Positions 6 to 11,117 of a DNA stretch of 64,000 nucleotides are shown here, piece after piece. Positions within the stretch are counted from its first letter, which is position 1, and each line of letters opens with the position of its first letter. Both the position numbers and the translations under genes were made by a program. The DNA is from Synechococcus sp. WH 8020 (GTDB lineage Bacteria; Cyanobacteriota; Cyanobacteriia; PCC-6307; Cyanobiaceae), in the NCBI RefSeq assembly GCF_001040845.1, contig NZ_CP011941.1:2018828-2082827 (forward strand), in the 5' to 3' direction. Under the pieces are notes generated by a model that was given only the letters and a program-made list of their open reading frames with translations, was not told the origin of the DNA and searched no databases.

Positions 6-1364
6 ATGTCTTACCTCATCACCATCGGCCCTGGGCCCATTCTCAACGAGCTAGTGAGCTGGGGGGCGTATCTCAACCGGGGCACTGTTCTTCTTCAATT
101 ACTTGTGGTTGGCGTTGTGATGGTCGCGGAACAACGCGGTGCACTTCGAAGGAGTGTGAGACACAGGCTATTTCCTGAATACATCCGAGTGCTGATCGGC
201 CCTCTACTTCTCTTAATCAGTTCTGCCCTATTTCTCCTGGCAGGCCTGCCATGGGGACTACTGCGTTACTTCGGACTGCTCTGGCTGGGCTGGATGTCAT
301 TCACACCTCTAAAAACGTTACTTCTAAATATCAACAAAAAATTTCCGGTTAATGAATTAGAAAGCACATTTTTAAGGCCTGTTTACGTTATCGTGGCCTC
401 CCTTTCTTTTGTGAGGTTGATGGGAAGCACAGAAAACCTGTCGCAAACTCCTATCGCCAATCTGTTTGGAGTAGAGCTCACTCTTGGCCGAATTTACCTC
501 GCTGTAATCGCGATTTACGTGATCATCACCCTGGCGTCTAGGCCTGCAACCTTTTTAGCTTGGCTCAGTGGGGTGTTGTTTGGAGTCCGTCCACGCAATC
601 GAAGAGGTCTAGAGCTGTTATTCCGCTACAGCGTGATCATCGTTGGGGTCATCGCAGTTGCTTACTACATCGGTATCGACGGCACCGCCTTCATCGCCAT
701 TGCGGGCGGACTCTCTGTAGGAATCGGCTTCGGTGTCAAGGAAATCGTCTCGAACTTCATTAGCGGCATCTGGTTGTTGTTTGAGGGTTCAGTGCGGCCA
801 GGTGAAATTTTAATGATCAATGGTGACCCTTGCACAGTGCGAAATCTAAGACTGAGAGCCACGCAACTCAGACGAGGACGCGATGGGGCCGAACTATTAA
901 TACCCAATCAAACTTTTTTCACAACAGAAGCAACATCCTTCACCGCAACAGAAACATCAAGGCGCGACAGTGTAGTGGTTGGCGCGGCCTACGATCACGA
1001 CCCCGACATGATTGTGGAGCTATTAAAAACAATTGCCAAAGAGCACAAAAAAGTTTTGGAGTATCCACCAGTTAACGCATTCGTTATCGACTTTGCTGAT
1101 TCTTCGATCAATTACAAGTTGTGTTTCTGGGTGGCCAATCCCCTCGACTCCTTTGAAGTTGGCAGTGATCTACGCCGAACAATCTGGAAGCAATTTGAAC
1201 AGAAAGGAATCACCATTCCGTTCCCACAACGTCAGGTGTATCCAATGGAATGGCCACCAAACCTTCAACAAAGTCTGCACTCAGCTGGAGGCGGAGGTGT
1301 AATACCTCAAGGCATACAACCAGAACTGACGGGCAGCGACGAAAAACCCAACAGCGAGGCCTAA
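6..1364 (+). CDS. MscS-family mechanosensitive ion channel (copy 1)
   Basis: This is a 452-residue inner-membrane channel of the MscS family, which releases solutes on hypo-osmotic shock. About five or six hydrophobic helices fill residues 26-225. The pore-lining helix and start of the beta domain follow at about 230-300, with the glycine-rich GGLSVGIGFGVKEI, then RPGEILMI and LLIPNQTFF. The rest is the cytoplasmic alpha/beta domain. The protein is longer than E. coli MscS (286 aa) because of extra N-terminal helices. It is a close paralogue of the gene at 5326-6600: both end in PQRQVYPMEWPPN. Its last 84 nt overlap the convergent permease gene at 1281-2069. Family is certain; gating stimulus is unknown. 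Confidence 0.9.
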   Translation: MSYLITIGPGPILNELVSWGAYLNRGTVLLQLLVVGVVMVAEQRGALRRSVRHRLFPEYIRVLIGPLLLLISSALFLLAGLPWGLLRYFGLLWLGWMSFTPLKTLLLNINKKFPVNELESTFLRPVYVIVASLSFVRLMGSTENLSQTPIANLFGVELTLGRIYLAVIAIYVIITLASRPATFLAWLSGVLFGVRPRNRRGLELLFRYSVIIVGVIAVAYYIGIDGTAFIAIAGGLSVGIGFGVKEIVSNFISGIWLLFEGSVRPGEILMINGDPCTVRNLRLRATQLRRGRDGAELLIPNQTFFTTEATSFTATETSRRDSVVVGAAYDHDPDMIVELLKTIAKEHKKVLEYPPVNAFVIDFADSSINYKLCFWVANPLDSFEVGSDLRRTIWKQFEQKGITIPFPQRQVYPMEWPPNLQQSLHSAGGGGVIPQGIQPELTGSDEKPNSEA

Positions 1365-2069
1365 CCCAAGCCAGAGCATGGGGGCGTTAGCCCGCCCCAG
1401 CACGACTTCAGCCGGAACAGTCGTCAGAAATGCCACTGGAATCACCAAGGTGAAGAGCAAACGCAAGGGCGCTGGATAGGCTGCTACGGGATAGCGACCA
1501 GATGCCAACACAGCCCGCAAAACCTCAGTGGCATTCCAGGTTTTCACAAACCAAATGCTGGTCGCGGCAATTAAAAACCAGAGTGAATAGAGGATCAACC
1601 CAGCAGCGAAAAGCATCACCAACACCACCGCAATGCCGAGAGGTGTCAAAGCAGCACCAGCCTGATGCCCGCCCCAAATCACCAATAACAAGCCAAGAAC
1701 AATCTCCGGCAACCCTGCTGGTGAGATGGTCCGCAATGACAACCAGAACTGACTATCAATCGGCTTCAGCAGTACAAAATCAAGCGTTCCTTCACGCACA
1801 TGGGTCACGATCGAAGACAGGTTGGGGCGTAACCAGGTGCTGGCCACCCCATCGAGAACCGTATAAAAACCCTGAACAATCAAGGCTTCGTGCCAGCTCC
1901 ACCCACCCAACTCACGGCCTGGTCCAAAAAAGAGAGAGAGCATGAACAGGCTGCCTAGCAAGCTCAAGCCAACCGCAATCAACTCAATCACAACATTGAA
2001 TTGATACTCCAACTGTGAGGCCACGGCTGTTCCCCAAAATCGCCGGAGACTTTTGAAGTAACGCCCCAT
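1281..2069 (-). CDS. ABC-2 type exporter permease, second subunit (DUF990/COG3694-like)
   Basis: A 262-residue integral membrane protein with about six hydrophobic segments. It has the character of the COG3694/DUF990 permeases that pair with a COG4587 permease and a COG4586 ATPase. It is the last gene of a three-gene minus-strand operon: its ATG abuts the stop of the preceding permease with no gap. The substrate of this exporter type is generally unknown. The 3' end overlaps the convergent MscS gene by 84 nt, so no separate terminator fits between them. Confidence 0.85.
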   Translation of the reverse strand: MGRYFKSLRRFWGTAVASQLEYQFNVVIELIAVGLSLLGSLFMLSLFFGPGRELGGWSWHEALIVQGFYTVLDGVASTWLRPNLSSIVTHVREGTLDFVLLKPIDSQFWLSLRTISPAGLPEIVLGLLLVIWGGHQAGAALTPLGIAVVLVMLFAAGLILYSLWFLIAATSIWFVKTWNATEVLRAVLASGRYPVAAYPAPLRLLFTLVIPVAFLTTVPAEVVLGRANAPMLWLGLGLAVGFFVAARQFWLYALRYYTSASS

Positions 2070-2867
2070 TCAGGCCCCCATCGCGCTGTACCGCCGAACC
2101 CCAGCGCGCCAAAGCAGAAGCACAAGCGGCAAAAGCAGCGCAATCCAGGCGAACTGGATTGCAAATCCAGCCAACAAGTCAACAGGTTGTTCCGCTAAAA
2201 CACGCGCCGGAAAGTCAATCAGATAGGGGAAGGGCGTCCACTGAGCCAACGCACGAACGAGGGGTGGAAAAGCGGTGAGAGGAGCAAGCAGACCAGACAA
2301 GAAAAGGAAGGGAATGAACAACAACCTCTCCAGAGCACTGGCCTTTTCACTCCAAAAGCAAAGTGAAGCAATCAGGCTTTGCAACAAAAAAGCAATCGAG
2401 AAGGCCATCCATGTGGCCAACCAAGCCAGAACAAAATGACCCAAGGATGGCAACCAGAAGGCCTTGGGCTGAATCAGAAAGAAAATCGCGGTGATGGCCG
2501 CAGCAAAAGGCAAACGCGTGAGCTGCTCGCCAAGATGACTTGCGACATATCGCCAGAGCGGATGGAGTGGCTGAAGAAGATATGGAGACAATCTGCCAGT
2601 GAGAGCATCCTCTTCAAAGTCGTAAACCATCCAAACAACAGAAAACTGTCGCACCAAAAAGGCACTCAAAAAATAACGATCAAGGCCTACACCATCCATC
2701 CCCAACACACCGCGAGCATCACTGCCATTCCAAAGGCTGAGCATGATAAACGGGAGAACACCCGAAAGAGCCCACAGGGCGATTTCGGCTCGATATTCCA
2801 ACATATGAGCGTATTCCGTGCCCAATAAAACTCTAATAATCTTGCGATTCAATCCAAAAATCCGCAT
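2070..2867 (-). CDS. ABC-2 type exporter permease, first subunit (COG4587-like)
   Basis: A 265-residue polytopic membrane protein (MRIFGLNRKIIRVLLGTEYA...) with six predicted helices, of the ABC-2/COG4587 type. The ATG at 2865-2867 overlaps the TGA of the upstream ATPase gene by one base (TGATG), which supports this start. A TTG one codon earlier is also possible. It forms a heterodimeric permease with the next gene. Typical ABC-2 exporters pump hydrophobic compounds, lipids or glycans; the cargo here cannot be read from sequence. Confidence 0.85.
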   Translation of the reverse strand: MRIFGLNRKIIRVLLGTEYAHMLEYRAEIALWALSGVLPFIMLSLWNGSDARGVLGMDGVGLDRYFLSAFLVRQFSVVWMVYDFEEDALTGRLSPYLLQPLHPLWRYVASHLGEQLTRLPFAAAITAIFFLIQPKAFWLPSLGHFVLAWLATWMAFSIAFLLQSLIASLCFWSEKASALERLLFIPFLFLSGLLAPLTAFPPLVRALAQWTPFPYLIDFPARVLAEQPVDLLAGFAIQFAWIALLLPLVLLLWRAGVRRYSAMGA

Positions 2868-3841
2868 CAAACACCTCCCTGGCGAAACAGATCACCGATC
2901 AGCTGGTCAATCGGGGGATCATTCACCTCCAGATCACGCACGTCAAAGCGTTCCAAAAGTTGTGCCACAACGGCAGTGAGCTGATCAGGCTGTACTCGCA
3001 AGTTCACCTCGCAGTCGCGACAACTGTCGAGCCTGCCAAGGCCAGAAAATGCCTCAGCCCCAACGGGAGCAGCAAGTTCGAGGCGAACATGGCGCTCGGG
3101 CGCAAGCCGACTTGCCAAGCGATCAAGCGGTCCATCGTGGAACAAATGCCCCTGATGAATCAACAACACACGCGGACATAAGGCCGTGATATCTGCCATG
3201 TAATGACTCGTGAGCAGCACAGTGGCACCAGTCCTTTGGTTGTAATCCGACAAAAACTTCCGAACCCGGGCTTGCGCATTCACATCCAAGCCAAGGGTGG
3301 GCTCATCAAGGAACAACACCTCAGGCTGATGAAGCAAAGCCGCGAGCAGCTCGGCTTTCATGCGCTGGCCTAACGACAACTTACGAACAGGTCGGGTGAG
3401 CTCCTCTCCCAACTCCAACAAATCCGACAGCTCGGAAATACGGCGATTGGCATCCCGATCGTTAATGCCGTACACCGCAGCATTCACCCTCAAGGAATCC
3501 ATCGGTGGCAGATCCCACAGCAACTGCTGCTTCTGCCCCATCACCAACGTGATCCGGCGCAAAAAGTCTGGATGACGCTTTTGCGGTTGATGACCTGCAA
3601 CGACCACCTGGCCCGCACTCGGATTGATCAAGCCACACAACATTTTCAAGGTGGTGGTTTTGCCCGCGCCATTGGCACCAAGAAATCCCACCATCTCCCC
3701 AGGTTCAATGACAAAGGAAACGTCTCGTACCGCAGACACATCGCGATAACGACGATTCACAAAATGCTGGAGGGTGCCAGCCAGGCCAGGCTGCTTATCA
3801 GCAACCCGATAGATCTTGCTCAGCTGTTCAACCGTGATCAG
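2867..3841 (-). CDS. ABC exporter ATP-binding protein (COG4586-like), non-standard start
   Basis: Cytoplasmic ATPase of the ABC-2 exporter. Visible motifs are Walker A GANGAGKTT, signature LSLGQRMK, Walker B VLFLDEPTLGLD and the switch His in LLTSHY. The first standard start is a GTG at 3760 (297 aa, NRRYRDVSAV). The frame stays open for 27 more codons back to 3841 and reads ITVEQLSKIYRVADKQPGL, which is the normal first strand of this family. No ATG, GTG or TTG lies between the upstream TGA (3863-3865) and 3760. I therefore infer a CTG start at 3839-3841 (or ATC at 3836-3838). It heads the three-gene exporter operon. Confidence 0.85.
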   Translation of the reverse strand: MITVEQLSKIYRVADKQPGLAGTLQHFVNRRYRDVSAVRDVSFVIEPGEMVGFLGANGAGKTTTLKMLCGLINPSAGQVVVAGHQPQKRHPDFLRRITLVMGQKQQLLWDLPPMDSLRVNAAVYGINDRDANRRISELSDLLELGEELTRPVRKLSLGQRMKAELLAALLHQPEVLFLDEPTLGLDVNAQARVRKFLSDYNQRTGATVLLTSHYMADITALCPRVLLIHQGHLFHDGPLDRLASRLAPERHVRLELAAPVGAEAFSGLGRLDSCRDCEVNLRVQPDQLTAVVAQLLERFDVRDLEVNDPPIDQLIGDLFRQGGV

Positions 3842-4078: not shown

Positions 4079-5317
4079 ATGCCAACAAGAGCTGGATTAA
4101 TCAACACCATCACAACCGCAACAATGATGTTGCCGCTCTTGCTTGCGGGCTGCTCATCAGCCAACAAGCCAGCCAGCACTCTTTATATTGCCTACCCAAT
4201 TCCAGACAACGAATTCACACAGACCTCTAAACAGCGCACGGAAAAGAGAATTCGCCTTTCGACTGAGCTATTCCTCAAAACAAATCCCAACACGCGTGTT
4301 GTCACAGTTGCCTACAGAGAGAATTCAATGAACGATCAGATCAGCGAAGATAGCAAACTCAACCTTGGACCAGACCTAATTTTAGGACCTGATTATGCAC
4401 TGCGAAATCTTTATCAAGACTCACTACTGAGCGCCTTTCCCAATAGCCTCCAGTGGAGACAACAGTACGACGAGGTCATCAAAAACATCTCTTTCGTTGA
4501 TGACAAACTTCTTTTCGCTCCCTATGCAATCCTTCCACAGATTTCTTGTTACAACAACAAGGCCGTAAAACAACCGCCTGAAACAATCCAAGAATTGGTA
4601 GAGCTTGGCGCCAGCGGCGTTCGAATCGGACTATCAACGCGCACCAATGAGATCTTTTGGACGGCTGGTTCTACCGGTGCAATCCCAGACATCAGCTCGC
4701 TGGTGAACAAGACAAGTCAAAACAAACTGCAAGCCAAAATCAAAGAGTGGATCACATGGTTACGACAAGCGGCTTATTACCAAAACATCTCCTTTTACAG
4801 CCAGCAATCTAAACTTATCAATGAATTGGCAGCGAATAATCTTGACTGGATATCCTGCCATTCTTATCAAGTACTGGAACTCAAAGAGAAAATGGGGGAA
4901 CACCTCGGCATTGCCATCCTTCCGAATGGAGTTCAAACTAAAGCTTTTGCTTGGCCGTTCTTGCTTGCTTTTGGCCTGGGCACTGATTCAAGCCCGTCAC
5001 AAAGGGAGATTGCTCTAAGTTATGTGAAATCGAATACCAATGCGGTAGGACAAAGGCAACTGATGCTTCGAACAGAGGATTTCCTACCAGCGAACAAGGA
5101 TGTTGATATTCCAAATCAAAGCTCACAAACACTCAAGGCCTACAACGAATCCTGGAACAAACAATCACTCAGCTATCTCAAGGAGTGGCCCATGATCCTT
5201 CAATACCTAGGAACACCCGAGAACTATCTTAAAGTCGACACAACACTAGCAAAATTAACCAGTGGGATCATCAGCGTTGACGAAGCAGTTCAGACTTTAA
5301 CCAACTTGGGCAAATAA
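4079..5317 (+). CDS. orphan extracellular solute-binding lipoprotein (family 1-like)
   Basis: A 412-residue periplasmic binding protein. The N-terminus is a lipoprotein signal: hydrophobic segment MMLPLLLAGCSS with lipobox LAGC, so the mature protein should be anchored at about Cys24. The remainder looks like family 1 (sugar/oligosaccharide-type) binding proteins, with an early DLILGPDYALRNLYQ segment and a mixed alpha/beta pattern. No ABC permease or ATPase of the importer type is adjacent. Instead an MscS gene starts 8 nt downstream with its own Shine-Dalgarno, so the two are very probably co-transcribed. Ligand unknown. Confidence 0.75.
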   Translation: MPTRAGLINTITTATMMLPLLLAGCSSANKPASTLYIAYPIPDNEFTQTSKQRTEKRIRLSTELFLKTNPNTRVVTVAYRENSMNDQISEDSKLNLGPDLILGPDYALRNLYQDSLLSAFPNSLQWRQQYDEVIKNISFVDDKLLFAPYAILPQISCYNNKAVKQPPETIQELVELGASGVRIGLSTRTNEIFWTAGSTGAIPDISSLVNKTSQNKLQAKIKEWITWLRQAAYYQNISFYSQQSKLINELAANNLDWISCHSYQVLELKEKMGEHLGIAILPNGVQTKAFAWPFLLAFGLGTDSSPSQREIALSYVKSNTNAVGQRQLMLRTEDFLPANKDVDIPNQSSQTLKAYNESWNKQSLSYLKEWPMILQYLGTPENYLKVDTTLAKLTSGIISVDEAVQTLTNLGK

Positions 5318-5325
5318 GGAAAATA

Positions 5326-6600
5326 ATGAATAACCTCCTTTTCGAGATTTCATCCTGGACTGGATACATTGATCGAGCAGCTGTTACATGGCAGTTGATC
5401 TTAATTCCCTGCGCACTGATCACTGACGGCTTCATTCGCAAACAGCTCAGCAGAAAAAATGCCTCACTCAGCACTTGTCTGGCCGTAGGTCCTCTGACAC
5501 TGATTGTCATCAGTATTTTGCTTGGGGTGGCATCCATTCCCACAGGAATCACAATCCGCTTTGGATCGATCTGGGCAGCATGGAACCTGCTGTTGTGGAT
5601 CGAACAGAAGCTAATCCAACGCAACCCGAAGGATCGAATAGCCCGATGGCTCAGGCGACTGGCAAGACCGGCCATCCTGGTTTTTGCACTGCTTTACTGC
5701 ATCGATCGACTCAGCAGCCTCTCATCCATCGGTCTCATTAATGTGGGCACATTGCTGGATTCCAAACTGGCGCTCGGCAAACTTTTTTCTTCCCTCATCG
5801 GCCTCTATCTGATTCTGATCGCCAGCGCACCGATCGCATTTCTGATCTCATGGTTATCACAAGCAGCCCTAAAATTCAGTGATCAAAGTCGCCATGCGAT
5901 TGAAATCATTGTTCGATATCTGCTCATCAGTTTTGGCCTCCTGGCTGTGGCCCTTCAGGCTGGTTTCAACGCAACAGCATTACTCACCATTTCAGCAGGA
6001 TTGTCGGTTGGCCTTGGTTTCGGAGTGAAAGAAATCTTTGCCAATATCTTCAGTGGAATCTGGCTCTTGTTCGAAGGATCCATCCGACCGGGAGAGATTC
6101 TGATGATCAAAGGCGAGCCTTGCCGAGTCAACAAATTATTACTTCGAGCCACACTCTTATCACGGGAACGGGATGACGCTGAACTGCTCATTCCCAACCA
6201 AACCTTGTTCAATCAAGATGCTGAATCATTCACCGCTGGCGAAAACTTCAGACGAGACGAAGTGGTTGTCGGTGCTGCCTATCACCATGAACCGCAGCAG
6301 GTGATGGCACTTCTCGAGCAGGTTGCCTGCCAACATCCAAGGGTCCTACTACATCCTGCACCCAAAGCTTTCGCGATCGACTTTGCAGAGTCGTCGATCA
6401 ACTACAAGCTCAAGTACTCGGTCCGTCATCCCCTCGAGGCTCTCACCGTGAGTAGTAACTTGCGTCAGGAGATCTGGACTGCGTTCAACGACCATGGGAT
6501 TGGCATCCCCTTCCCACAACGCCAGGTCTATCCGATGGAGTGGCCACCCAACAGTCAATCAAGCCTGCAATCCCAGCGAAACCCGCACGATCACTCCTAA
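5326..6600 (+). CDS. MscS-family mechanosensitive ion channel (copy 2)
   Basis: A 424-residue membrane protein paralogous to the channel at 6-1364. It shares SAGLSVGLGFGVKEIFANIFSG (pore helix), RPGEILMIKGEPC, ELLIPNQTLF and the same tail PQRQVYPMEWPPN. Five or so transmembrane helices precede the pore helix. A clear AGGA lies 9 nt before the ATG. It sits 8 nt after the orphan solute-binding lipoprotein, an unusual partnership that raises the idea of ligand-controlled channel activity (inference only). Confidence 0.9.
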   Translation: MNNLLFEISSWTGYIDRAAVTWQLILIPCALITDGFIRKQLSRKNASLSTCLAVGPLTLIVISILLGVASIPTGITIRFGSIWAAWNLLLWIEQKLIQRNPKDRIARWLRRLARPAILVFALLYCIDRLSSLSSIGLINVGTLLDSKLALGKLFSSLIGLYLILIASAPIAFLISWLSQAALKFSDQSRHAIEIIVRYLLISFGLLAVALQAGFNATALLTISAGLSVGLGFGVKEIFANIFSGIWLLFEGSIRPGEILMIKGEPCRVNKLLLRATLLSRERDDAELLIPNQTLFNQDAESFTAGENFRRDEVVVGAAYHHEPQQVMALLEQVACQHPRVLLHPAPKAFAIDFAESSINYKLKYSVRHPLEALTVSSNLRQEIWTAFNDHGIGIPFPQRQVYPMEWPPNSQSSLQSQRNPHDHS

Positions 6601-6986
6601 TCGTTTTCGGGCTAGCGCAGCTAGCACTGCAGTGTCTGCAGCTCACCGCCTACCCAAAGGCATCCCTGGATTGAATCTGACAAGACACAAAAAGTCGCAG
6701 AGTTCCTGCAAACAGGCTGCCTTTCACCAACTCAATCGATCTTTCTCAGTCCTTCACAACAGTGAGCAACTGAGTCGTCAAGGGACTGGGAACACGCCAG
6801 ACGAGTCATTGACAATGACATTACAAGCCTAAAATTAACTTAAAAGAGATCACGAACCCCAAGCTCAAGAGACAATACCAAATTAACAACCTATACTATT
6901 GATATCCACGGTTACATGATTACCACAAAAGATCAACGATAGGAACATTTTTGGCAAACACAAGCCTGTCCAAACCCTAACACTCA
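6601..6986. other. intergenic region, no gene seen
   Basis: These 386 bases are AT-rich toward the 3' end and hold no convincing reading frame. A TATACT hexamer at 6892-6897 could be the -10 element for the downstream lipoprotein gene, but I see no good -35 partner. A GCTAGC repeat pair lies near 6613-6627. Confidence 0.5.
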
Positions 6987-7898
6987 ATGCAATCAAGAAT
7001 GTCTATTTTAATGATAAAGCTCCTACTCATAGCATTTGCCGGAGTAATCGCTGGATGCAATTATAATCAATCAAAAAGAATTGAATCTAGCAACGAATCA
7101 AGGCTTGCGACAAATACGGTGAAAGATTGCGCGGGTGAGCATTCCGCAGATGCAAAACTTCGAACAGTTTCCATTGTCCCTCAATTCTCCGCCTCGAGAA
7201 TTCATTCTGATTACTGGCCTCTTCTTACAGAAATAGGAAAGCGCACAAATATATGCTTCAAGCTCGAACAACAAAAATCAATTCCGTCATTTGAAGTAGT
7301 GCTCAAATCAGGGTCTTACGATTATGCCTTTATGAACCCATACCATCAGGTGATGGTAAGCGATATCTATCAACCTATCATTAGGGACAAGCAACGTTTG
7401 CTCACAGGGATCATTGTGACCAACAAAGGCAGCAATATTAATTCCGTACAGCAAATCAATGGACGCACATTATTGCTGCCGGCACCCAATGCATTTGGCG
7501 CATCACTACTGACACGGGCATACCTTGACAAGAAGAATATCAAGTTCAATCCAAAATACGTGAAAACGCATCAAAATGTTTATCGCGGGGTCGCACGAGA
7601 TTCGGAGCTTATTGGGGGCGGGGTCAACAACACATTCAACCGCGAAAGCGACGAGCTTCGCTCCAATCTATCTGTCTTGGTTGAGACCCCTGGGTACCCA
7701 GCTCATCCCTTTTCAGCACTGAAAGAGCTACCCCCTGAAGAAATAAAGAACGTTCAAAATGCGTGGATCACGATTTCAAAAGATTCCAATTCAAAAAATC
7801 TATTTAGGCAAGTTCAGATAAAAATCCCTATCAAGGCTAACTACACTCAAGATTACGCCCCACTTAAAAATCTTAGGCTGGAAAAATACGTGCAATGA
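6987..7898 (+). CDS. PhnD-like phosphate/phosphonate-type solute-binding lipoprotein
   Basis: A 303-residue lipoprotein with signal segment LLLIAFAGVIAGC (lipobox IAGC, Cys about 23). The mature part fits the PF12974 (PhnD-like) fold: VSIVPQFSASRIHSDYWPLL, SYDYAFMNPYHQVM and GRTLLLPAPNAFGASL all match the family pattern. No phosphonate permease or ATPase is nearby. The stop overlaps the ATG of the GGDEF-EAL gene (ATGA), so translation is probably coupled. PF12974 proteins are known as sensor inputs as well as transport subunits; a sensor role is my inference here. Local base composition is AT-rich. Confidence 0.8.
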   Translation: MQSRMSILMIKLLLIAFAGVIAGCNYNQSKRIESSNESRLATNTVKDCAGEHSADAKLRTVSIVPQFSASRIHSDYWPLLTEIGKRTNICFKLEQQKSIPSFEVVLKSGSYDYAFMNPYHQVMVSDIYQPIIRDKQRLLTGIIVTNKGSNINSVQQINGRTLLLPAPNAFGASLLTRAYLDKKNIKFNPKYVKTHQNVYRGVARDSELIGGGVNNTFNRESDELRSNLSVLVETPGYPAHPFSALKELPPEEIKNVQNAWITISKDSNSKNLFRQVQIKIPIKANYTQDYAPLKNLRLEKYVQ

Positions 7899-10279
7899 AC
7901 TGGCACTTGAAAAGAAAATTTAATATTAAAAAAGCAGTCCTTGTCTTCCGCCATAACGCTGTTCCACTGACACTGATGGCATCCTGCGGCCTTATTGCTC
8001 TATTCGGAGCAGACCGATGGATTCTTCGAAATTTAGAAGAACAAAGAAATCTTAATTTCAAGCAAGCAATCAGCAGAATTGCATTACAACTTAGCGAAAA
8101 TGTCCTACTTGAAAACTACAACAATATTGATACACTTCTCCTACGAATTCTTGATGAAGACCTTCATGTGACATGCCTGTTGGTTTCGGATAACAACGGG
8201 AAAATATTGTCAATTGCGAGTCGTGAGCAGCCGGGTGCTCCTGCATCGATTAAATATGGCAAACCACCAAAAAAATGTCAGGCAAGCAGACAAGAGCCAA
8301 ATAACAAAACAATTTACAATGGAAACTTTTACGCAGAAAGAAGAATCGAAAACAACAATCTACCCCTTGGATATGTAACAGGACATGCAGTCAACGACGA
8401 GAATGACTTAGCACTAATTCGCAAAATTGAGATTATTCTCTTTGGAGCATTTGGAGTTGCCTTTCTACCGGCTTTTGGATTACTTAGCTGGTCGAGTCTC
8501 CGTCAACTAGAGATAGAGCAAGAAAAGACTGCACGAGTTTCAGGGTTAATTAAGCAGCTTCAGGAAGCCCAAGGTCGAACACATGCTGCTTTTGAAGGAA
8601 CCAATGACGGCTGGGTTGAGTGGAATCTACAAACAAATCAATGCTTACCATCACTTAAGATGAGACGACTATTAGGCATACACAAATATCACAGAATCGC
8701 GCAAAGAGCCAATCATTCACTAAGCGAAAACTGGAAATATTTTATCATCAAAGATGATTATCAAAAGTTTCATTTTTTCCTGGATACCATTAAACGCAAA
8801 ACCGGCAGACCTCACTTACCCGAAGTATCTGGAATTGAGGTTCGCATTAAACCAATCGGTTCAGAAAAAATTCAAACCCTGAAGGTTGAAGCGGTAGTCA
8901 CAAAAAGTGTCAATAATGAGCCTTCAGTGATAGCTCTTGTTGCGAATAATATTACACGGGCGAAAGAACAACAACAGCGAATTAACCATCTCGCTTTTTA
9001 TGACACCTTAACAGGCCTTCGAAATCGATTCTCCTTTGAGGAAGAACTCAAAAATGCTGTAAATGGCCTCAATAGAAATGAATATCGCTTAGCAATATTT
9101 GCTATTGATATTGATAATTTTAAATTCTTAAATGACTCTCATGGGCATGCGGCAGGTGATCAATTTCTAATCCAGGTTGCCAACCGAATCAAATCTTGCT
9201 TACGAGCCAATGACTTTGTAGCTCGTCTTGGAGGGGATGAATTCGTCATCATTTTTAGACTTCCATACAAAAGCAACAGCGAGATAGAAACCCTGACCAC
9301 ATCAATAGCGGAAAAACTCCTAGCCAAATTATCAAATGCCTTTAGCCTCACAAATTGTACTGTTTACAATACCTGCAGCATTGGAATTTGCATCGCCAAT
9401 ACTGAATCTAAGTCTACAGCAACATTATTAGACAAAGCGGACATGGCTTTATACAAAGCCAAAGGAATGGGGCGCAATTGTTTCTATATCTATCAAGCGG
9501 GAATGGCATCAGCTCTTATTTCAAAAGCCACTACCGCAGAAAGACTCAGAGCATTCATTGACGCAGGCGAAAGCGGACTTTTCTTGCAGCCAATTATAAG
9601 ACTAGACACCAATGACTCTTTAAATAACAAGGGACAACAACGGATCGCTGGATATGAAGCCCTTTTTCGTTGCCCTCGTCTTAAAAACAGTATTCAATAC
9701 TTAATATCATGCGCGGAAGAAGCGGGCATTATTAATTCCATTACAGAGTCCATACTCGACGGAATCAAAGATGAATTAAGCAAAATGCGTCATAACAAAA
9801 ATGCTTATATATCGATAAACATAAGTCCTATCCAATTTCTAGAAAACAAATTCCCCTCAAAGTTCTTGCATCAGCTTCGCGATAGAGACATTGATCCCGA
9901 AAGAATCTGCATAGAAATAACAGAAACCGCCGTCTTAGAAGACACCAATTGCGCACTAGATCATATTACCTCCCTTCAAAAGGAGGGAATTCGCTTCTCT
10001 CTAGATGATTTCGGCACTGGCTATGCCTCAATCGAACTCCTTAGAAAGCTACCATTTACCTATTTAAAAATAGATAGAACCTACATTCAAAACATCCATC
10101 AAGAATCAGAGATCAAGCTCATCAAATCTATTATCAGCATGGCCAAAGCGTTTAATATGGAACTCATAGGAGAAGGGGTAGAAACTATCGGACAAAAAAC
10201 CATCCTTGAATCCCTTGGCTGTGAATATGCCCAAGGATTTTTATTTAACAAAGATGGCAGTTACAACCATGTCAGTTAA
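7895..10279 (+). CDS. membrane GGDEF-EAL cyclic-di-GMP enzyme
   Basis: A 794-residue signalling protein. One transmembrane helix lies near residues 24-45, an extracytoplasmic domain follows to about 175, and a second helix spans about 180-200. A PAS-like segment starts near 228 (AAFEGTNDGWVEWN). The GGDEF domain has an intact active site at 446-450 and an RxxD inhibitory site five residues earlier (437-440). The EAL domain has its EAL at 588-590, then ITETAVLED, SLDDFGTGYAS, LKIDR, IGEGVE and AQGF, so all usual metal and catalytic residues appear present. It may make or break c-di-GMP. ATGA overlap with the PhnD-like lipoprotein suggests the lipoprotein feeds its periplasmic domain. Confidence 0.93.
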   Translation: MNWHLKRKFNIKKAVLVFRHNAVPLTLMASCGLIALFGADRWILRNLEEQRNLNFKQAISRIALQLSENVLLENYNNIDTLLLRILDEDLHVTCLLVSDNNGKILSIASREQPGAPASIKYGKPPKKCQASRQEPNNKTIYNGNFYAERRIENNNLPLGYVTGHAVNDENDLALIRKIEIILFGAFGVAFLPAFGLLSWSSLRQLEIEQEKTARVSGLIKQLQEAQGRTHAAFEGTNDGWVEWNLQTNQCLPSLKMRRLLGIHKYHRIAQRANHSLSENWKYFIIKDDYQKFHFFLDTIKRKTGRPHLPEVSGIEVRIKPIGSEKIQTLKVEAVVTKSVNNEPSVIALVANNITRAKEQQQRINHLAFYDTLTGLRNRFSFEEELKNAVNGLNRNEYRLAIFAIDIDNFKFLNDSHGHAAGDQFLIQVANRIKSCLRANDFVARLGGDEFVIIFRLPYKSNSEIETLTTSIAEKLLAKLSNAFSLTNCTVYNTCSIGICIANTESKSTATLLDKADMALYKAKGMGRNCFYIYQAGMASALISKATTAERLRAFIDAGESGLFLQPIIRLDTNDSLNNKGQQRIAGYEALFRCPRLKNSIQYLISCAEEAGIINSITESILDGIKDELSKMRHNKNAYISINISPIQFLENKFPSKFLHQLRDRDIDPERICIEITETAVLEDTNCALDHITSLQKEGIRFSLDDFGTGYASIELLRKLPFTYLKIDRTYIQNIHQESEIKLIKSIISMAKAFNMELIGEGVETIGQKTILESLGCEYAQGFLFNKDGSYNHVS

Positions 10280-10329
10280 TCAAGGAGCATTCCATCGAGA
10301 GTTGGTCAACCACTGATAACAACTGAGTT

Positions 10330-11015
10330 CAGATCGCACAGCCTTTTAGGTGCTAACTCTGCCCGCGCCTGCTTCTCTGCAAGGTTGGGATTGGTTCATC
10401 GGCCGGGGAAGCCCTTGATCTCCTTCTCGGGCTTGGCGATGTCTTTCGCTAGGCGGGCCTGAAGTGCTTCCAGATCAACCAGGCCTTCGATGGGTAGTAA
10501 CAGGGGCAGACTCGGCGTCCGCTGCGGTCATTAACTGGACGGATTTCGCTCGAGTCAAAGACGTGATATCAGACGTACCTTGCCCAAAGACTTCCACCAG
10601 AGCTGGGCGGTCAGTCACGAATCGCACGGGTAACGATTGGGATGGTGTTAAACCCGCAACGGCTCGCCAATGACGGACCAGGCGTATTACAGCGATCAAC
10701 GCAGCAAAGGACGTTTCCAATTCATCATCCAAAGCAACCTCGTCCACAACTGGCCAAGATTGAAGTGCCAAGACAAGGGGTTCGCTCTCCGCGGTAACGC
10801 TGTGCCAAAGCTCCTCTGGGAGATGCGTCATCAGGGGATACAGCATCAGAGGCATTGGACTGATCACGATTGCCAGCACCCTCCCGCACTAGAGCGCAGC
10901 GAAGGCCGTCGGTGCCATAGCTCAATCAGAAGCAGCGGATCAATACCAAACCAGCGCTCTTGCTCATCTTGCGGTTCTGCCCGTCCCGAACCAACCCGTG
11001 GATGTAGCGAACGCT
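10330..11015 (-). pseudogene. decayed 3' fragment of valS
   Basis: On the minus strand this stretch matches the C-terminal half of the intact valS at 12202-14946. It begins at the KMSKS region ([19 protein letters not shown]) and continues through YGTDGLRCALVRE. It then jumps across about 400 missing nt near 10883 to VISPMPLMLYPLMTHLPEEL and on to the extreme C-terminus. A second deletion of about 45 nt lies near 10500, and an in-frame TGA follows PGR near 10397. There are several frame breaks. Similarity to the live copy is roughly 70 percent at protein level by eye. It cannot encode a functional synthetase. Confidence 0.85.
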
Positions 11016-11117
11016 ATGACAAATCAGCCCAATGAAAGTTGATAGACCTCTGCATTCGGCCTGATCAAAGACGAAGGAGACGGCAGACTGCTTGAAGCAG
11101 ATCACCACGATGACGCA

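Follow-up and report, generated by a model that had tools for sequence, protein, structure and literature searches.

Two overlapping genes on the forward strand of Synechococcus sp. WH 8020 encode a periplasmic binding lipoprotein and a membrane GGDEF-EAL enzyme, which are very probably an external sensor protein and a membrane enzyme under its control. Positions are given throughout in the coordinates of the window, the whole 64,000-nucleotide stretch of DNA that was analysed. We consider it likely that the two proteins constitute a bipartite transmembrane receptor, in which a PhnD-fold lipoprotein docks on the GGDEF-EAL enzyme and switches c-di-GMP synthesis and breakdown. The motifs, the gene overlap, the Pfam matches and the purifying selection are together far beyond chance, and the pair is real, conserved and probably functional; the parts that it combines are already known ones.

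The receptor subunit is a lipoprotein of 303 residues (6987-7898, +), assigned to the PhnD fold by Pfam, by its AF2 model (pLDDT 91.9) and by VIA structural comparison. PF12974 is the sole Pfam family that it matches (1.8e-39), and its N-terminus is hydrophobic (segment 2-27) up to a lipoprotein signal, the IAGC lipobox with Cys24 (7047-7058, +). The top VIA match of the model is XAC2383 (Z 24.3, 246 residues superposed at an rmsd of 2.7 Å, sequence identity 13% across the fold), with HtxB tied to within 1 of it and PtxB and ArrX close behind, while the best PDB profile match is ArrX (E 6.1e-21). Two cysteines, C48 and C90, are each found in 37 of 87 relatives and occur together in all 11 cyanobacterial relatives examined, and on this pattern may possibly form a disulfide.

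The output subunit, an enzyme of 794 residues (7895-10279, +), shares with the lipoprotein gene an ATGA stop/start overlap (7895-7898, +) indicative of translational coupling. Both open reading frames have exactly the coordinates given in the original prediction. Two hydrophobic segments (residues 21-40 and 172-200) enclose a loop of about 130 residues. Downstream, the enzyme matches PF00990 (6e-45) and PF00563 (5.9e-51). The GGDEF domain (residues 367-528; 8993-9478, +) carries the RxxD inhibitory site as RAND at residue 437 (9203-9214) and the GGDEF motif at 446 (9230-9244), and the EAL domain (residues 549-786; 9539-10252, +) retains all recognised catalytic residues, within EALFR (588), N642 (NISP), ITET (675), DDFGTG (704), KIDR (725), GEGVE (759) and QGFLF (780). 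Of the solved catalytic modules, MorA (4rnh, 1.3e-69) and PA0861 (5xgb, 6.9e-50) come closest, and the motifs checked align with matching residues of MorA 4rnh, except that the RxxD Arg is missing in MorA; motifs and alignment thus confirm the earlier claim that the GGDEF, RxxD and EAL sites are intact. For a PAS domain suspected by eye in residues 205-366, Pfam returned nothing. The full architecture was found nowhere else in 386 genomes of the phylum, where the matches listed begin at about residue 200 or later, and it is therefore known here from the window genome and its sister genome G201 only.

Pairing of the lipoprotein with a signalling enzyme extends well beyond these two genomes. A family-wide sample of 201 genomes contained seven others with strong lipoprotein relatives (36-48%). 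These seven genomes belong to the same genus and to three further ones, and in each the lipoprotein gene lies directly before a same-strand GGDEF membrane gene that lacks EAL. Among 31 genomes of the genus the lipoprotein gene is present in four, accompanied twice by GGDEF-EAL, once by GGDEF and once by a hybrid histidine kinase. The last case (G210, locus L030) is apparently the single-cell genome Synechococcus AG-679-C18, whose lipoprotein is the closest relative beyond the sister genome (49%) and whose kinase has an N-terminus similar to that of our enzyme, which argues that the output can be swapped. A scan of named genomes with the patterns NPYH and PNAF returned 475 relatives, the best 80 of which, mostly from Burkholderiales, were retained; the next gene among these 80 encodes a HisKA/HATPase kinase in 51-52 cases and a GGDEF protein in 17, and when the window is added to the best 80, one of 81 partners carries EAL, namely the window enzyme. 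An EAL-bearing output joined to a PhnD-fold receptor was thus seen in two genomes only among those examined. In a tree of 87 rows, the window and AG-679-C18 fall within a cyanobacterial set of five (support 100/97), and a second cyanobacterial set of six (99/92) joins the first at 84/90.

What the partners have in common is the periplasmic domain between TM1 and TM2, which in the window enzyme covers residues 41-171 (8015-8407, +) and is the proposed docking site for the lipoprotein. In the AF2 model of enzyme residues 1-230 (pLDDT 87.8), two TM helices, the first of them long, flank another helix and a small beta sheet. Foldseek gives this model a single PDB match below 0.001, to the periplasmic domain of CdgS9, a LapD ortholog (4u64, E 4.9e-5), and CACHE sensor domains follow as weak matches. 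Pfam found no match in the loop of the window enzyme, LapD_MoxY_N included; in the AG-679-C18 partner this family gives a weak, sub-threshold match. The loop of the window enzyme is divergent, its N-terminal 230 residues being only 6-21% identical to those of the partners. Over 75 partner N-termini, G102, P124 and G159 are at least 90% conserved in kinases and cyclases alike, as is W148 in the whole-protein alignment. Conservation across such differing outputs is our main argument that the domain receives the lipoprotein signal. Since kinase and GGDEF partners have this periplasmic domain in common, the pair is probably a modular two-protein receptor with exchangeable output, and the earlier proposal of a two-protein receptor is supported by the conserved pairing as well as by the domain.

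Both genes are under selective constraint. In G201, the nearest relative with the pair, they lie in the same place with 95% and 93% identity and no stops, every enzyme motif is identical, and the overlap reads GTGA instead of ATGA. The dN/dS values of 0.12 (lipoprotein) and 0.19 (enzyme) between the window and G201 indicate purifying selection on both, and synonymous divergence of the pair (0.19 and 0.165) matches that of valS (0.178), which implies inheritance from the common ancestor of the two genomes.

The earlier suggestion of a transferred origin also gains support, acquisition by transfer being the simplest reading and a likely one given the low GC of the genes, their patchy distribution and the empty sites in relatives. 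GC is 0.42 in the lipoprotein gene and 0.40 in the enzyme gene against 0.52 in the window, and since the pair of another genome (G181) has a GC of 0.65-0.66, the family is not characteristically poor in GC. At the same locus the pair is found in none of six relatives (L123-L128): in L124, L125 and L126 mscS directly adjoins valS with no insert, the gene block 1281-3760 directly adjoins valS in both L127 and L128, and in L123 (G101) a pair of binding-protein (SBP) and MscS genes is inserted at the 3' end of valS with a valS fragment beside it. The window itself has a decayed partial valS copy beside the pair (10327-11036, -; 54-71% amino acid identity to intact valS), an insertion or recombination scar. 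Decayed valS fragments thus lie near inserted genes both here and in L123 (L123:10403-10563), suggesting that insertion or recombination recurs at the valS 3' end.

Upstream of the pair, a lipoprotein resembling a solute-binding protein but lacking a Pfam match (4079-5317, +) is followed 8 bases on by an MscS-type channel (5326-6600, +). Paralogous binding-protein and MscS pairs (about 25-31% and 43% identity) lie upstream in L122-L126 and L128, suggesting that this pairing recurs in marine Synechococcus. Relative to the sister genome, the genes at 4079-6600 have dS values of 0.65 and 0.38, compared with about 0.18 for the receptor pair and valS, and this higher divergence points to a different history.

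The original prediction saw a phosphorus- or phosphonate-type input in this pair, a claim against which the ligand pocket now speaks. The lipoprotein carries a P-N-A-F-G-A-S motif at residues 167-173 (7485-7505, +), placed by profile alignments to PtxB, PhnD and ArrX and by column counts. In the alignments to PtxB and PhnD, its Ala169-Phe170-Gly171 falls on the Ser-Thr-Ser P-oxyanion loop, and Leu139 (7401-7403, +) takes the position of the pocket Tyr of PtxB and of ArrX Tyr138, which carries the mutation in 6x8w. Over 87 rows, Ala169 is kept in 83 and Phe170 in 84, with Gly or Ala at position 171, counts to be read in the knowledge that the NPYH and PNAF residues are enriched by construction because the scan selected on both motifs; Leu139 and the pocket His195, which lie outside the patterns, are present in 87 of 87. 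A role for the lipoprotein in coupling phosphorus status to c-di-GMP, through binding of phosphate, phosphite or a phosphonate, would agree with its membership of PF12974, with a fold closest to PtxB, HtxB, ArrX and XAC2383, and with the invariant His195, yet we regard it as unlikely in view of the near-invariant replacement of Ser-Thr-Ser and Tyr across the relatives. The Ser-Thr-Ser loop is moreover kept in the other PhnD gene of the genome (L029), which has an ABC ATPase beside it and a downstream gene read as a permease, and is likely the transport PhnD of this organism. Nor is there an outstanding Pho-box-like site upstream of the pair, where one site with 3 mismatches lies at 6826-6844; the window has 24 such sites where 21 would be expected, which is not significant. 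With the loop and Tyr replaced and a PhnD bearing Ser-Thr-Ser elsewhere in the genome, P-oxyanion binding in the known manner is unlikely, and judging from these residues the ligand is probably something other than phosphate, phosphite or a simple phosphonate bound classically.

The same fold serves transport as well as sensing, and the lipoprotein could be an orphan transport binding protein for a distant ABC transporter, its overlap with the enzyme incidental. It shares the bilobed fold and Pfam family of the transport proteins PhnD, PtxB and HtxB, orphan binding proteins exist, and the PhnD, ATPase and presumed permease genes of L029 are at hand. Unlike these proteins, however, it has lost the oxyanion loop and has no adjoining transporter genes, its neighbours being the MscS and GGDEF-EAL genes, and both the pairing of sensor and enzyme across phyla with exchanged outputs and the overlap conserved in G201 make an incidental arrangement highly improbable. 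We likewise give little credence to a LapD-like role, in which the enzyme would not catalyse but would sense c-di-GMP and signal inside-out to the lipoprotein, its periplasmic client. The resemblance to LapD and CdgS9 in periplasmic fold, with GGDEF-EAL behind, and the faint LapD_MoxY_N signal in the closest relative's partner would fit such a role, but the GGDEF and EAL domains of LapD are degenerate whereas the catalytic residues of the window enzyme are all intact, and the LapG protease (PF06035) is absent from the genome.

Sensing by the receptor pair that we favour has parallels in several known systems. AioX and ArrX are PF12974-fold binding proteins for sensing, not transport, and the AioX pocket is formed by Tyr131, Ser161, Ser163 and His192 (PMC5908839); the window lipoprotein keeps the pocket His as His195 but lacks the Tyr and the two Ser, and the output of AioX and ArrX is instead a sensor kinase, AioS or ArrS. 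The XAC2383-XAC2382 pair of Xanthomonas citri, by its title a bipartite receptor-diguanylate cyclase (Teixeira et al. 2018, J Biol Chem 293:10767; cited in PMC10380989), likewise joins a PhnD-fold periplasmic receptor to a membrane c-di-GMP enzyme, and differs in that the partner is, again by title, a diguanylate cyclase whereas the window enzyme has an intact EAL domain too. Because that pair is published, the principle is not new, contrary to what had been supposed for the window pair. In NspS-MbaA of Vibrio cholerae, a binding protein whose ligands are polyamines determines whether a GGDEF-EAL enzyme synthesises or degrades c-di-GMP (PMC8967002). The window pair has the same composition of periplasmic binding protein and GGDEF-EAL enzyme, with enzyme sites that are intact by sequence. 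The two binding proteins differ, NspS being PotD-like and the window lipoprotein matching PF12974 only, with no PotD-type match.

The genomic setting for such a receptor is sparse. The window genome has four GGDEF and three EAL matches, and no PilZ protein; its single MshEN match, in a PilB-like ATPase, looks degenerate and is without the RLG motif expected in MshEN. The same genome holds a second overlapping pair, in which a GGDEF protein accompanies an NMT1-like binding lipoprotein (L027:4784-7200; G000:C1:920783-923199); this pair is AT-rich and adjoins a GGDEF-EAL gene. Of the 31 genomes examined in the genus, only 7 have a GGDEF above the cut-off, in line with the expectation that c-di-GMP is scarce there and with a published survey (PMC7063779), according to which Prochlorococcus and some Synechococcus are without a c-di-GMP system and those possessing one inhabit richer waters.

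In the receptor model, the lipid-anchored lipoprotein would capture a small periplasmic ligand and dock on the enzyme at its LapD/CACHE-like periplasmic domain. By analogy with the action of NspS on MbaA, docking or undocking would decide whether the enzyme dimer makes c-di-GMP or breaks it down; physical docking, the direction of this switch and the output of the receptor are what we infer. Counting against the model are the divergence of the window loop, the confinement of EAL to one of 81 partners, and a genome with no PilZ protein and a single, degenerate-looking MshEN match. The module was probably acquired by a coastal Synechococcus lineage, and its relatives place the same input before GGDEF-only or hybrid-kinase outputs. 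A broader proposal, which we offer tentatively and hold to be possible though somewhat doubtful, is that a PNAF-marked family derived from PhnD abandoned P-oxyanions for a new ligand class and became a plug-in sensor for kinase, cyclase and GGDEF-EAL outputs, through which in coastal Synechococcus a dissolved compound switches c-di-GMP up and down.

The pair offers a tractable route from sensor to c-di-GMP in a group whose genomes are mostly without the messenger. It also draws attention to a widespread receptor family, with its hundreds of relatives in one scan, that sits in a phosphonate-binding Pfam family with a pocket lacking the phosphorus-binding residues. The unexplained pocket of this large family is the most valuable part, because identifying a single ligand would shed light on many kinase and cyclase pairs together.
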